DNA of 64,000 nt from positions 75,982-139,981 of the forward strand of contig UQKL01000002.1 of assembly GCA_900541695.1 (NCBI GenBank), written 5' to 3'. Position 1 is the first letter of the stretch; the number at the start of each line of letters is the position of its first letter. Shown piece by piece: positions 3,264-47,036 of this stretch. The stretch comes from an uncultured Collinsella sp. (GTDB taxonomy: Bacteria; Actinomycetota; Coriobacteriia; Coriobacteriales; Coriobacteriaceae). The position numbers and the translations under genes were made by a program. The notes under the pieces were generated by a model. The model worked only from the letters and a program-made list of their open reading frames with translations, had not been told where the DNA came from and did not search any database.

Positions 3264-5273
3264 ATGGCTAAGTTTGACATCATCGCCGCGACCGGTTGCC
3301 CGACCGGTATTGCGCACACCTTCATGGCGAAGGAGGCGCTGGAGAAGGCAGCTGCCGAGCGAGGTCTGACCATTAAGGTCGAGACTCATGGCCAGGTCGG
3401 TGTCGAGAACGAGCTCACGAAGGGTGAGATCGCCGGTGCCAAGGCCGTCGTCGTCGCAGCCGATAAGGATGTCCAGGCTGAGCGTTTCGCCGGTAAGCCC
3501 ATGGTTTCCGTCGGTGTTTCCAAGGCCCTGTCCGTCGAGGCCGCCGGAAAGCTGATCGACCGCGCGCTCGCCGCTAAGGGCGACGACACGGTTGCCGCTG
3601 CCGCTGATGTCGAGGACGAGGTCGAGGAGAAGGAATCCGTCGGCCACATCATCTATAAGCACCTCATGAACGGCGTCAGCCACATGCTGGTCTTCGTCGT
3701 TGCTGGTGGTGTTCTGACCGCCATTTCGTTCCTGTGGGGCATCACGTCCTTCGATTCGACGGCTTCTGACTACAACAGTTTTGCCGCTATGCTCAAGATC
3801 ATTGGCGGCATCGCCATGAACCTCATGGTTCCGGTGCTCTCCGCCTACATCGCCGAGTCCATCGGCAAGCGCCCGGCGCTCGTCCCCGGCTTTGTCGCCG
3901 GTATGATCGCCATCCAGGGCCTGCCCGTTAACGCCGATACACACATGATCGATGCTGGCGGCACGGGCGTGGGCTTCGGCTTCCTCGGCGGCATCGTCGG
4001 CGGCTTCCTCGCTGGTTATGTCATCTTGCTGCTCGAGAAGGTCTTTGCCGGTCTGCCCAAGAACCTGGACGGCCTCAAGGCCATCTTCCTGTACCCGCTG
4101 TTCTCGACTGCTATCGTCGGTCTCGTGATGCTCGGCATCTCCGGCCCCATGGCTGCCATCAACACCGCCATGATGGACTTCCTCAAGGGTCTGTCTGCCT
4201 CTGGCGCTGTTGTCCTGGGTCTTGCTATTGGTTGCATGTGCGCCTTTGACATGGGCGGCCCGGTCAACAAGGCTGCTTACGTCACCGGTACCGCCATGCT
4301 CACCGAGGCCCTGGCTGCTGGTGTCGGCACCGACACCTACAACTTCGGCACCAACTTCATGGCTGCCGTCTCTGCTGCCTGCATCGTTCCGCCGCTGATC
4401 ACCACCTTTGCCGTCATCGTCGGCAAGAAGTACTTCAGCCAGGAGGATCATGACGCCGGTGTCGTCAACCTCATCCTTGGTTGCACCCACATCACCGAGG
4501 GCGCCATTCCGTTCATGACCAAGAACATCTGGCCCGTCATGCCCATCATGATGCTCGGTTCCTCCATCGCCTCGATCCTGACCATTATGTTCAACGTTCA
4601 CGATCCGGCGCCCCACGGTGGCTTCCTGGTCCTGCCCGTTGTCGAGAACGGTCCGCTGTGGGTCCTCGCGATCCTCATCGGCGCTGTGGTCGGTGGCATC
4701 CTGTTCGTCGCTTTCAAGAAGTATGACTTCGAGAAGAGCCAGAAGGCCGCTCCCGCCGCTCCCGCTAAGCCGGTCGAGGCCCCCAAGGCCGCTGCCGTCG
4801 AGGCTCCCAAGGCCGAGGCTGCCGATTTCGTGAAGGTCGAGAACGTTTTTGTCGCCGAGAACTTCGCTTCTCGTGACGAGGCCCTGAGCTTTGTCTCCAA
4901 CCAGGCTGTCAAGGCCGGTGTCGCTGACGACGCCGATGCCGTGATGAATGCCTTCCTGGCCCGCGAGGCCGAGGGCTCCACGGGCATGATGGAGGGCTTC
5001 GCTATTCCGCATGCCAAGTCCGATGCCATTACCGATGCCGCCGTCATCGTCGTCAAGGACGACTCTGGCGTGACCGGTTGGGACACCATGGATGGCGCTC
5101 CCGTCAACGTGGCTATCGCCCTGCTTATTCCCGGTGCCCAGGCCGGCACCACGCACCTCAAGATCCTGTCCAAGGTCGCCGAGGCGCTTATGGACGAGGG
5201 CTTCCGTGCCACCGTCAAGGGTTCCACCGACGCCGCCGAGATCGCCAAGACGATCAACGCCCGTCTGGTGTAA
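3264..5273 (+). CDS. fruA: PTS fructose transporter, EIIBCA fusion
   Basis: This membrane permease takes up fructose and phosphorylates it at C1. Three domains run in order over 669 residues. EIIB-Fru covers about 1-100, with the phosphocysteine in TGCPTGIAHT (C12). The multi-spanning EIIC covers about 125-485. After an Ala/Pro-rich linker (about 490-525), EIIA-Fru carries the phospho-histidine H583 in FAIPHAKSDA. The ATG at 3264 is chosen because AAAGGAGGG lies just upstream and the product then starts directly with the EIIB fold; an upstream in-frame start at 3072 would add 64 residues unlike the family. Codons are strongly C-ending, suggesting high expression. HPr, EI and two FruK-like genes follow. 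Confidence 0.95.
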   Translation: MAKFDIIAATGCPTGIAHTFMAKEALEKAAAERGLTIKVETHGQVGVENELTKGEIAGAKAVVVAADKDVQAERFAGKPMVSVGVSKALSVEAAGKLIDRALAAKGDDTVAAAADVEDEVEEKESVGHIIYKHLMNGVSHMLVFVVAGGVLTAISFLWGITSFDSTASDYNSFAAMLKIIGGIAMNLMVPVLSAYIAESIGKRPALVPGFVAGMIAIQGLPVNADTHMIDAGGTGVGFGFLGGIVGGFLAGYVILLLEKVFAGLPKNLDGLKAIFLYPLFSTAIVGLVMLGISGPMAAINTAMMDFLKGLSASGAVVLGLAIGCMCAFDMGGPVNKAAYVTGTAMLTEALAAGVGTDTYNFGTNFMAAVSAACIVPPLITTFAVIVGKKYFSQEDHDAGVVNLILGCTHITEGAIPFMTKNIWPVMPIMMLGSSIASILTIMFNVHDPAPHGGFLVLPVVENGPLWVLAILIGAVVGGILFVAFKKYDFEKSQKAAPAAPAKPVEAPKAAAVEAPKAEAADFVKVENVFVAENFASRDEALSFVSNQAVKAGVADDADAVMNAFLAREAEGSTGMMEGFAIPHAKSDAITDAAVIVVKDDSGVTGWDTMDGAPVNVAIALLIPGAQAGTTHLKILSKVAEALMDEGFRATVKGSTDAAEIAKTINARLV

Positions 5274-5307
5274 TCCCGCAACGCGCGAATAATATCGCCT
5301 CTGTAAC

Positions 5308-5345
5308 AAAGGGGGAGACCCTCTCCAGGGCCTCCCCCTTTTTCT
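5308..5345 (+). terminator. Terminator after fruA
   Basis: An AAGGGGGAG stem pairs with CTCCCCCTT and is followed by a run of T, 35 bases after the fruA stop codon. It is a typical rho-independent terminator and separates fruA from ptsH. Confidence 0.85.
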
Positions 5346-5356
5346 ACCCCTCCCAC

Positions 5357-5425
5357 AAGTTGCGGTGAAATAGGGACTGTTTAAACGATTCAACTCCAAA
5401 TGCAGTCCCTATTTCACCGCAACTT
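5357..5425. repeat. REPIN-like inverted repeat, family A, copy 1
   Basis: Two 22-base arms (5357-5378 and 5404-5425) are perfect reverse complements. They begin AAGTTGCGGTGAAAT and carry GGGACT/AGTCCC at the loop side. Near-identical elements occur at 14190-14256 and 30405-30472, each just downstream of a gene, so this is a dispersed family and not a gene-specific terminator. Confidence 0.85.
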
Positions 5426-5531
5426 AGAAGAAGGGGATAGCGCGGCCTGTCTATCGGGTCGTCCGTGCGGATAAATATTCAGCCAGAATTCCGTTCTCAC
5501 GATATTACTCTGGACCGACCAAGTTTCCGCA

Positions 5532-5662
5532 GCTTGCCTGCCGGGCGGCGCGTAATTAAGTTTATCGCGAGTTCCGCACGCAAAGGAAAGCACTTAATGT
5601 GCTTTCCGTCTTGCGCAGGACTGTAGAGCAGCAAACTTAACCGCCCCGCCCGGCAGGCAAGC
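5532..5662 (+). ncRNA. Candidate structured RNA element, copy 1 (upstream of ptsH)
   Basis: A perfect 17-bp outer stem (5532-5548 with 5646-5662) and an inner TTAAGTTT/AAACTTAA pair enclose a core at 5564-5624. The core reads ATCGCGAGTTCCGCACG, then a hairpin with stem GGAAAGCAC/GTGCTTTCC and loop TTAAT, then GCAGGACTGT and GAGCAG. The same core blocks recur upstream of sdaA on the opposite strand, with compensatory changes in the hairpin and an unrelated but still complementary outer stem. Both copies lie upstream of a gene in the same orientation. It may be a leader RNA, a small RNA or a mobile structured element. The rest of the 5274-5799 gap holds only the fruA terminator and a repeat. 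Confidence 0.6.
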
Positions 5663-5799
5663 GGCCAGCAACGACATCCGTCCAATAATTCGTGCGAAAC
5701 ACAATGAAAAACAGTTTGATGTGAGTTAATATAAACAACGTCGTGAATATGGCTCCTGTCGCATGGCTGACAGGGGTTAAACACAAAAAGGAGTCAATT

Positions 5800-6063
5800 A
5801 TGGTTACTGAGAAGGCTACCCTCGTTAATCCTCAGGGTCTTCACATGCGTCCGGCTGGCCTCTTCGCCTCCTCCATGGGCAAGTACGCCTGCGACGTGAC
5901 GGTCGTCACCCCCGAGAAGGAGGTCAACGGCAAGTCCCCGATGGCCCTCATGGCTGCTGGTATCCCCTGCGGCACCGAGGTCGAGGTCAAGTGCGACGGC
6001 GCTGACGAGGCCGAGGCTCTGGCTGCTGCCATCGAGCTCATCAAGAGCGGTCTTGGCGAGTAG
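5800..6063 (+). CDS. ptsH: Phosphocarrier protein HPr
   Basis: HPr passes phosphate from Enzyme I to the EIIA domains of the PTS. The 87-residue length is normal. The catalytic histidine H15 lies in GLHMRPAG, and the regulatory serine S46 lies in GKSPM, the site used by HPr kinase where that enzyme exists. The ATG at 5800 is preceded by AAAAGGAG; an upstream in-frame start at 5743 would add an unrelated 19-residue extension. A terminator-like hairpin lies between this gene and ptsI, so HPr may be made in excess over EI. Confidence 0.97.
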   Translation: MVTEKATLVNPQGLHMRPAGLFASSMGKYACDVTVVTPEKEVNGKSPMALMAAGIPCGTEVEVKCDGADEAEALAAAIELIKSGLGE

Positions 6064-14167: not shown

Positions 14168-14189
14168 CACTAGCGCCTTATCCTCCCTG

Positions 14190-14256
14190 AGTTGCGGTGA
14201 AATAAGGACTGAATTGGTCTTCTAGCGGCCTAAACAGTCCCTATTTCACCGCAACT
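14190..14256. repeat. REPIN-like inverted repeat, family A, copy 2
   Basis: The arms at 14190-14210 and 14236-14256 match the family at 5357-5425, with one mismatch in the left arm (AAGGACT instead of AGGGACT). It lies between the TetR gene and the convergent ABC permease gene and may serve both as a terminator. Confidence 0.85.
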
Positions 14257-14269
14257 TAGGGTTGAGGTT

Positions 14270-21344: not shown

Positions 21345-21465
21345 GTTCCGAGGGCTTTGGTATTTGGTCGCCTGCTCGGACAGTCCTGCTCGCACGGAGG
21401 CCACATTAAGTGGCCTCCGGCTCGTGCGGAACTCGCGATCGACCAAATACCAAAGCCCTCGGAAC
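21345..21465 (-). ncRNA. Candidate structured RNA element, copy 2 (upstream of sdaA)
   Basis: A perfect 26-bp outer stem (21345-21370 with 21440-21465) encloses, on the minus strand, ATCGCGAGTTCCGCACG, a hairpin with stem GGAGGCCAC/GTGGCCTCC and loop TTAAT (21396-21418), then GCAGGACTGT and GAGCAG. The same blocks occur upstream of ptsH. The hairpin stems differ by paired changes (AAG/CTT there, GGC/GCC here) and the outer stems are unrelated but complementary. The core ends about 91 bases before the sdaA start. A small separate hairpin, GGCGGG/CCCGCC, lies at about 21322-21344. The rest of the 21290-21633 gap holds the metK terminator. Confidence 0.6.
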
Positions 21466-22914: not shown

Positions 22915-23025
22915 GATTGTCCTTTCAAAAACGCGTCCCGGCGACCGTTACCATTCCGCCGGGCTCTGTATGCAAGGGGACATCATAGCGCGTAAATCCA
23001 ACATTCACACCCTTTCCGCACCTAC

Positions 23026-23094
23026 TCATTGGGGACAGACTTAAATGAGTAGGTCGGTGCTCATTGGGTGGTCATTTAAGTCTGTCCCCAATGA
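23026..23094. repeat. REPIN-like inverted repeat in metK/gltX divergent gap
   Basis: The 23-base arms at 23026-23048 and 23072-23094 are perfect reverse complements and contain GGGGACAGACTTAAATGA. The signature GGGGACAGAC is known from REP-type repeats linked to RAYT transposases in other bacteria; no such transposase lies in this window. A GTCGGTGC direct repeat flanks the right side. It sits in the shared upstream region of two housekeeping genes. Confidence 0.8.
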
Positions 23095-23180
23095 CTGGGT
23101 CGGTGCCCTTTGTGCGGAGGTTGCTTTGTTGCTTTATACTGGTGCGGTTAGACATCCATCCTGCAATCGAGGAGATTTCC

Positions 23181-27765: not shown

Positions 27766-27865
27766 GTCCCTGGGATGGGCCCACACATATCATCCCGTGC
27801 TCAAACATTCTCGCTTTGCTGCGAAACTGCGCGCGGGACGATATGTGTGGGCCCATCCCAGGGAC
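27766..27865. repeat. Long inverted repeat between def and fmt
   Basis: The 32-base arms (27766-27797 and 27834-27865) are complementary with one mismatch and carry GTCCC/GGGAC at both ends. The 36-base interior can form a smaller hairpin. It lies 11 bases after def, so it may double as a terminator. Confidence 0.85.
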
Positions 27866-30404: not shown

Positions 30405-30472
30405 AAGTTGCGGTGAAATAGGGATTGAATAGCGGCTTCTGCCCGCCAAACAGTCCTTATTTCACCGCAACT
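30405..30472. repeat. REPIN-like inverted repeat, family A, copy 3
   Basis: Arms matching AGTTGCGGTGAAAT lie at 30406-30426 and 30452-30472, with paired changes relative to copy 1 (GGGATT on one side, AGTCCTT on the other). It begins six bases after the rsmB stop. Confidence 0.85.
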
Positions 30473-35374: not shown

Positions 35375-35438
35375 ACCCAAATTATCGCGATATTCAAATG
35401 TGCCTATACCGATACTATTTGTAGCCAAACAAAAGTAA

Positions 35439-35573
35439 CCCGGTTTACTACGACGAATTGAATGATCTCAACCAGGGTCATTTTGGTGATATTAAAACCG
35501 CAGGTAGAGGCGTTGCCAATTTCGTAGATTACCCGCCGTGGTCGGCCGGAGCCATTTTGTCGTAGTAAACCGG
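35439..35573. repeat. MITE-like inverted repeat element
   Basis: Perfect 15-base arms, CCGGTTTACTACGAC at the left and its complement at the right, enclose about 105 bases without a reading frame. The inner CCGCAGGTAGA is shared with the element at 1944-2103. With the operator-like sites and the glgA terminator this accounts for most of the 35234-35664 gap. Confidence 0.7.
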
Positions 35574-35596
35574 CCCTCTTTTTAATGGAGAAGTTC

Positions 35597-46905: not shown

Positions 46906-47036
46906 GGGTTTTATCGGGACGGGGCAGAAATAATCGCCTAGCAAGTGTTTAACCGTCCCATCAGGGTTTTATCGGGACGGTGGATAGAAATAATCGCTCG
47001 AAGAGTGATTATTTCTGCCCCGTCCCAGGAAAACCC
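46906..47036. repeat. Compound inverted/direct repeat after the thiamine kinase gene
   Basis: GGGTTTTATCGGGACGG occurs twice in direct orientation (46906 and 46964), each followed by AGAAATAATCG within about ten bases, and once more in inverted, slightly diverged form at 47007-47036. The outer copies can pair over about 30 bases. It carries the GGGAC/GTCCC signature. Confidence 0.8.

Follow-up and report, generated by a model that had tools for sequence, protein, structure and literature searches.

The palindromic element that precedes ptsH in this DNA, together with its relatives, is best explained as part of a dispersed family of palindromic repeats of the Coriobacteriia, a family of the REP, RPE or MITE kind that is mobile or was formerly so, and that is conserved as a folded single strand. 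We put the probability of this reading at about 0.6. It is supported by a structure with compensatory changes, by an orientation that is not fixed, by copies lying in frame within ORFs, by cores that occur both ways round, and by presence or absence of the element among close relatives. That it serves ptsH or sdaA as a cis-acting RNA is improbable.

Copies of the element in the window

A first-pass annotation of the window (the whole stretch of 64,000 nucleotides analysed here) had described a two-copy element. Copies 1 and 2 were both located where they had been reported and each folds in the manner described; inspection of the letters confirmed their hairpin stems and the shared order of their core. 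The count of two was too low, since a third, divergent copy was matched by the covariance model of the family.

5532..5662, plus strand: copy 1 (covariance model 67.4 bits, E 1.4e-20)
5532..5548, plus strand: left outer arm of copy 1, 17 bp, partner 5646-5662
5567..5624, plus strand: conserved core and apical hairpin of copy 1 (hairpin 5585-5607, loop TTAAT; CAAA subtype)
5646..5662, plus strand: right outer arm of copy 1
21345..21465, minus strand: copy 2 (covariance model 97.3 bits, E 5.1e-31)
21380..21436, minus strand: conserved core and apical hairpin of copy 2 (AGCC subtype)
27766..27865, minus strand: copy 3, divergent, 'type B' with a short apical hairpin (family covariance model 25.5 bits, E 5.8e-6)

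Copies 1 and 2 have in common, and in this order, ATCGCGAGTTCCGCACG, the hairpin with the TTAAT loop, GCAGGACTGT and GAGCAG. The stem of the apical hairpin is GGAAAGCAC/GTGCTTTCC in one copy as against GGAGGCCAC/GTGGCCTCC in the other. The outer stems had been said to be perfectly paired in both, which holds for the 26 bp of copy 2 (arms 21440-21465 and 21345-21370) but not for copy 1, whose stem as a whole is imperfect, an unpaired stretch separating a perfect outer part of 17 bp from a perfect inner part of 8 bp (5556-5563 with 5633-5640). By eye, the left inner arm of copy 1 is the same as that of another locus (L054), a likeness of letters which suggests recombination among copies. The arms of copy 3 are 38 nt long and complementary at 92%.

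Copy 1 is flanked by a gene for PTS EIIA/B/C, which ends at 5273, and by ptsH, encoding HPr (PF00381). Copy 2 lies between metK and sdaA (serine dehydratase, PF03313/PF03315), the start of sdaA being 55 nt beyond the end of the right arm; HPr and serine dehydratase had therefore been named correctly as the neighbours. Copy 3 lies 11 nt past the stop of def, which encodes peptide deformylase, and precedes fmt.

Folding of copies 1 and 2 was compared with that of shuffled sequences, giving z values of -8.7 and -11.2 respectively, and none of 200 shuffles equalled either copy. A block of 13 bases, CGAGTTCCGCACG, searched with up to 2 mismatches, was matched 7 times in the window against 3.86 expected, which is no excess over chance. 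Scanning the whole window with Rfam 15 at gathering scores returned three tRNA matches and nothing else, so that none fell on a copy of the element, and the region of copy 1 gave zero matches at E values up to 10. The Collinsella-1 RNA, which had been raised as a possible identity, appears as RF01700 in a table of 2010, where it is a candidate structured RNA of Actinobacteria and the human gut, as far as the consulted part of that paper goes (PMC2864571). The Rfam 15 scans, which bear on Collinsella-1 provided that the release holds RF01700, yielded no match.

Conserved structure and covariation

The element is made up of two short conserved strands (approximately GCGAGTTCCGCA and AGGACTGTNNGAGC) which form a helix together; above this helix is an apical hairpin and below it an outer stem, both of them variable. 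The outer stem comprised 16-51 pairs in 129 of the 161 copies measured, the measurement leaving out copies near contig ends or with fewer than 14 pairs. Changes on both sides were seen in 27 of the 37 predicted pairs among 83 aligned members. The covariance model was built on 46 varied members, and in the alignment of these, 91.9% of the cells were paired; shuffling lowered this to 70.7%, and sliding of the partners to 46.3% or less. Cells with a double change numbered 300 against 99.7 in shuffles. Two further shuffle measures were weak, namely the number of pairs having a double change in the 46-member alignment (18 against 17.3) and the number of further pair types (63 against 56.8, with 10 of 500 shuffles as high). 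Covariation was located in the outer stem, in the short helix beneath the apical hairpin and in the apical hairpin itself; the inner helix AGTTC/GGACT is invariant in the 46-member alignment and is thus uninformative in this respect.

Arms were strongly matched to their own partners. When 18 positions were compared, 107 of 120 elements had 15-18 of them paired between their own two arms; among controls with swapped arms, the same was true of 35 of 2385. At the thrC-thrB site (genes identified by PF00291/PF24857 and as a GHMP kinase), stem sequences are quite different among species and yet pairing is mostly near-perfect. Alleles that could be aligned there showed 91 double changes from one Watson-Crick pair to another as against 33 single changes, counts which were taken pairwise over 13 distinct arm pairs, so that one event is counted many times and the counts are not independent. 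Two stem alleles were distinguished by eye at the metK-sdaA site. The inner arms of Collinsella copies share, again by eye, a loose consensus resembling CATATAAGG, and given these shared letters they seem to belong to the element. Outside the arms, 97 elements had no conserved motif, the highest information being 0.28 bit; an apparent look-alike of a REP tag failed on counting. No run of T or A was found beyond the outer stem.

Many homologues thus bear out the earlier description of fixed blocks with covarying helices. The covariance-model search of Coriobacteriia that had been suggested in the first-pass annotation found homologues which covary, but whose positions and orientations also vary.

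Distribution in the Coriobacteriia

The two-part pattern GCGAGTTCCGCACG-N18-48-GCAGGACTGT was present in 34 of 65 genomes from the family surrounding the nearest genome, with up to 17 occurrences per genome, and the reversed pattern was present in none of the same 65. The joint pattern exceeds chance, unlike the 13-base block alone. An exact-pattern scan of genome contigs returned at least 120 stretches. Judging by their titles, we take all of these to be from Coriobacteriia, among them Collinsella, Adlercreutzia, Parvibacter and Slackia. The exact core pattern was absent from viral contigs, and carriage of the element by phages was dropped as an explanation on this ground. With the covariance model, matches at E values up to 1e-4 were obtained in at least 159 of 296 Coriobacteriia genomes and at least 57 of 125 genera, figures which are lower bounds, as 14 candidates were scored per genome under strict filters.

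Sets collected with the exact pattern favour intact cores, and conservation of the core is therefore overstated in them; mutated cores also occur at orthologous loci (L151, L157, L195 and L305). A divergent set of 30 copies was taken from 28 genomes chosen for weak model matches. In these copies GCGAGTTCCGCAG and GAGGACTGTCTGAGC, or sequences close to them, are retained as the conserved strands, and the apical hairpins are quite different. Eleven pairs of outward-facing elements were seen, 10 of them spaced by approximately 200-226 nt, and these come from few loci that were repeatedly sampled, so that the spacing is given no weight. Some draft contigs start or end at elements (L004, L084, L144 and L198), which would fit with an interruption of short-read assembly by long palindromes, and the element may be the cause of some draft Collinsella contigs ending in this way.

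No earlier description of the element was found in the literature searched, but it may be among the 3161 candidates tabulated in one study (PMC8040213). The main text of that study, in the part consulted, has a single mention of Collinsella, in connection with a 51-bp candidate that precedes L7/L12 (PMC8040213).

Position relative to genes

Gene contexts, as given by a custom hexamer-based ORF caller, were varied. When the strands of the upstream and downstream genes are written relative to the element, the 145 distinct contexts were ++ in 45 cases, -- in 40, +- in 32 and -+ in 10, and the other 18 were without one neighbour. Grouping by place gave 58 contexts in 47 clusters (-- 26, ++ 14, +- 14, -+ 4), flipped copies being counted apart. 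Some positions are conserved. The element was kept across species between thrC and thrB at 27 of the 30 loci fetched, and between genera at pheS-pheT and at one other locus.

The main rival to a repeat family, which we judge unlikely, is that the element serves the 3' end of transcripts on the complementary strand, as a terminator or a stabiliser of mRNA 3' ends after stop codons, the core being a site for protein binding or processing. The commonest arrangement agrees with this: the right-hand gene was on the complementary strand, which then reads into the element just past the end of that gene, in 40 of the 58 cluster-contexts, and in 22 of these 40 the arm was -9 to 36 nt from the gene end. 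Read on the complementary strand, 20 copies of the divergent set of 30 come after a stop codon (19 of them at -5 to 27 nt and one at 53 nt), and several apical hairpins of divergent copies look, by eye, like intrinsic terminators on that strand. Just 10 of the 145 contexts are between divergent genes, a number for which there is no background rate. This bias towards the 3' side of stop codons hints at a function for the host, which counts against a repeat family. On the other hand, the right-hand gene was on the opposite strand in 18 of the 58 cluster-contexts, ptsH, sdaA and thrB among them, the outer stem is without the U-tract of an intrinsic terminator, there being no T-run past it, and cores flip at fixed loci (see below). 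The remaining divergent copies were inside a predicted ORF (6 of 30) or otherwise placed (4 of 30); one of the six (L409) is also 21 nt past purA, and the ORF that covers it is probably spurious. A 3'-end role is weakened further by the in-frame copies described below, because these cannot be 3' ends.

Inversion of cores, exchange of arms, and presence or absence

The core was found inverted between the same arms at several sites. At ptsH this was so in 1 of 17 readable copies, the other 16, including the window copy, sharing one orientation; further ptsH copies were garbled, truncated where a contig ends, or lost by deletion, and in one of them (L184, genome G038) the element is mostly deleted and part of the right outer arm is left. 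Inverted cores were likewise found in 1 of 4 copies at the L017 site and, at thrB, in 1 of 27 readable copies (L319), 26 being forward, one of which is cut. By the strand of the model hit, the core was inverted in 1 of 12 copies in hypF (L417) and in 8 of 22 at a helicase locus. Other sites showed no flip in the sample, with all readable copies forward at sdaA (22 of 22) and in cluster 12 (17 of 17), and these uniform orientations count against a repeat family. Arms from different alleles or loci were combined in L026, L079, L136 and L306 and in copy 1 of the window. Some flips and chimeras could be errors of assembly at inverted repeats, yet the ptsH flip is in a genome assembled as a single contig (G007).

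Among near loci, no core was found at 14 of 20 for the L111 site and at 8 of 12 for the L017 site. Presence and absence were thus seen at these two sites and in hypF and may stem from gain or from loss; no movement was observed. The coreless L111 sites retain a short hairpin that by eye resembles the base of the filled stem, and this may either predate the core or be what a deletion has left of the filled allele. A hairpin without a core was also seen by eye at thrB in genome G019 (L311).

Copies inside protein genes

Copies of the element lie in frame inside genes for HypF, for a DEAD/DEAH-type helicase and for the fusion protein TrpGD, in the last case within the linker. The hypF linker was recovered in 24 of 29 loci and not in the other 5; as one locus (L437) repeats the gene of another (L423), 23 distinct recovered loci were compared. 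The element was carried in frame by 12 of these, with a linker piece of 67-86 aa, and the 11 without it had a linker piece of 38-49 aa. Pfam domains support the identity of a carrier as HypF, and residues 311-358 of one carrier have no partner in the solved HypF structure 3vth. The right outer arm in hypF reaches up to or into the conserved codons for LAPSLAPGL, and by eye the left arm is an inverted copy of it, a geometry which suggests a host origin for one of the arms. Two coreless hypF sites (L426 and L435) have letters that by eye resemble the right end of the element, and may be losses rather than virgin sites. Further model matches in or near hypF, at 1384-1495 of L419 (minus strand) and 3469-3513 of L420 (plus strand), suggest a second insertion in the hypF of some genera.

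For the helicase gene, 30 loci of one genus were searched with the model, which found the element in 22 (forward in 14, inverted in 8), and inspection of peptides by eye found it in 28 of the 29 loci shown, in either orientation. The same site is occupied by different core types. Peptides have thereby been added to HypF, TrpGD and the helicase.

The hypF arms also bear on a reading in which the core alone was repeatedly dropped into hairpins that already existed, such as terminators, the outer arms being purely host sequence. An element inserted into palindromes had been the main alternative in the first-pass annotation; the tie to palindromes has turned out nearer to the evidence, but insertion of the core into ready-made hairpins is itself a rival, and an improbable one. 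It would account for the hypF arm that extends to the LAPSLAPGL codons, for the hairpin without a core at thrB in G019 and for the short hairpin kept by coreless relatives of L111. This last hairpin is equally explained as a deletion product, however, and the loose consensus of the Collinsella inner arms argues against arms of host origin throughout.

The functional RNA read along with the downstream gene, as first proposed, would be a cis-regulatory RNA in the 5' UTR (a riboswitch or a protein-binding leader). We consider this very improbable, and reject it on orientation, flips and ORF copies: in spite of the strongly covarying structure, the distance from copy 2 to sdaA and a right arm that adjoins the ribosome-binding site of thrB in the copies read, orientation to genes is not fixed, the neighbouring genes are varied, the L319 core is inverted at thrB itself, Rfam gave no match, and the sense strand is poor in promoter-like sequence. 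Scored against the sigma-70 consensus only, the 110 nt that precede the left arm had a median of 2.2 on the sense strand over 47 clusters, below the other strand (4.4) and the shuffled mean (3.6), and no consensus promoter was found within 5270-5810 of the window. A small RNA driven by a promoter of the element's own was discarded on the same scores.

Proposed mechanism

On the preferred reading of a dispersed repeat family, the element would be, or would have been, mobile, and an enzyme acting in trans would recognise its folded single strand. Template switching between the inverted arms during replication would maintain their complementarity and occasionally invert the core, and recombination between copies would exchange arms and cores. 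In the part of PMC8604942 consulted, template switching between inverted repeats is described as homogenising arms and inverting spacers, and as having lengthened one short inverted repeat. Near-perfect, place-specific arms and flips could accordingly be had without selection on pairing, because template switching yields both. It would, taken alone, leave the wide spread and retention of the core unexplained, and we therefore infer an enzyme that acts in trans on the folded single strand, along with recombination between copies. A further proposal, which we regard as unlikely, is a class-wide, structure-directed mobile element of the Coriobacteriia, in which the core would be recognised as folded single-stranded DNA by a candidate enzyme and insertion would copy the adjoining host DNA into an inverted repeat, each copy thus building its own perfect and flippable stem, even in frame in proteins.

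No mobilising enzyme was found, and 30 Y1-transposase loci had no core in the DNA examined. Genes for Y1 transposases are nevertheless present in 37 of 43 Collinsella genomes, which leaves room for a Y1 transposase acting in trans. Target-site duplications were not evident, repeats of at least 5 nt being seen at 2 of 47 loci against 1.5% in the control. The long-kept positions (thrC-thrB, pheS-pheT and the helicase) count against a repeat family, since the cores of neutral relics should not persist for so long.

Comparison with known systems

The element is placed near RPE, REP and MITEs, as a variant that is a member of none of them, because neither end tags nor target-site duplications were found, nor was a Y1 transposase linked to it. 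The RPE of Rickettsia are dispersed palindromes that occur in frame within ORFs of unrelated proteins, according to the parts consulted of PMC10969869 and PMC3733652. The element is likewise palindromic, dispersed and in frame within ORFs, but it lacks a GTAG or CGTC tag at its outer ends and has a large invariant internal core and arms specific to each locus, RPE having been compared by description only. REP and BIME sequences, which are associated with RAYT transposases, have REPs of 20-40 bp (PMC3733652, in part). They resemble the element in their many intergenic hairpin copies, few of them between divergent genes and some of them paired. The element differs in its span of 99-167 bp and in its lack of a tetranucleotide tag, neither GTAG nor CGTC being present at the outer ends of 97 elements with the flanks outside the arms covered. 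Linkage to a RAYT was rejected, as no core lies near the 30 Y1 loci. Bacterial MITEs are shorter than 500 bp, with inverted ends, no coding capacity of their own and a dispersed distribution (PMC10969869, in part). The element is also short, non-coding and dispersed with inverted ends; it differs in having no target-site duplication, no parent IS at the Y1 loci inspected, and outer arms that are unrelated between loci.

Recognition of the element as a folded single strand would follow a logic similar to that of integrons. The attC site, whose helices are freely variable, is recognised in its folded single-stranded form and carries boxes of the form RYYYAAC/GTTRRRY. These R and L boxes were absent from both strands of the one core tested.

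A family of this kind would satisfy covariation tests for structured RNA and yet act as DNA, through flips, recombination and insertion into proteins, and this calls for caution in RNA discovery based on covariation. Its stem alleles, flips and chimeras are legible in genomes, and it thus offers a natural system in which template switching at inverted repeats could be measured. If the enzyme is found, it would define a new system of structure-directed mobilisation.

Other palindromes in the window

A palindromic repeat of the form AGTTGCGGTGAAATAGGGACTG..CAGTCCCTATTTCACCGCAACT, or near variants of it, is found in the window at 5357-5425, 14185-14261 and 30406-30472, and also beside one Y1 transposase locus (L261). 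Two long inverted repeats, at 1943-2104 and 35431-35582, have 30-nt arms approximately 100 nt apart and the interior AAAACCGCAGGTAGA in common; in the former, AAAACCGCAGGTAGA is part of a terminator-like hairpin, making a hairpin within a hairpin. The palindromes at 23020-23100 and 46906-47036 contain GGGGACAGACTTAAATGA and a repeated GGGACGG..AGAAATAATC, and GGGAC palindromes were also seen near Y1 transposase genes (L269, L271, L275 and L278).
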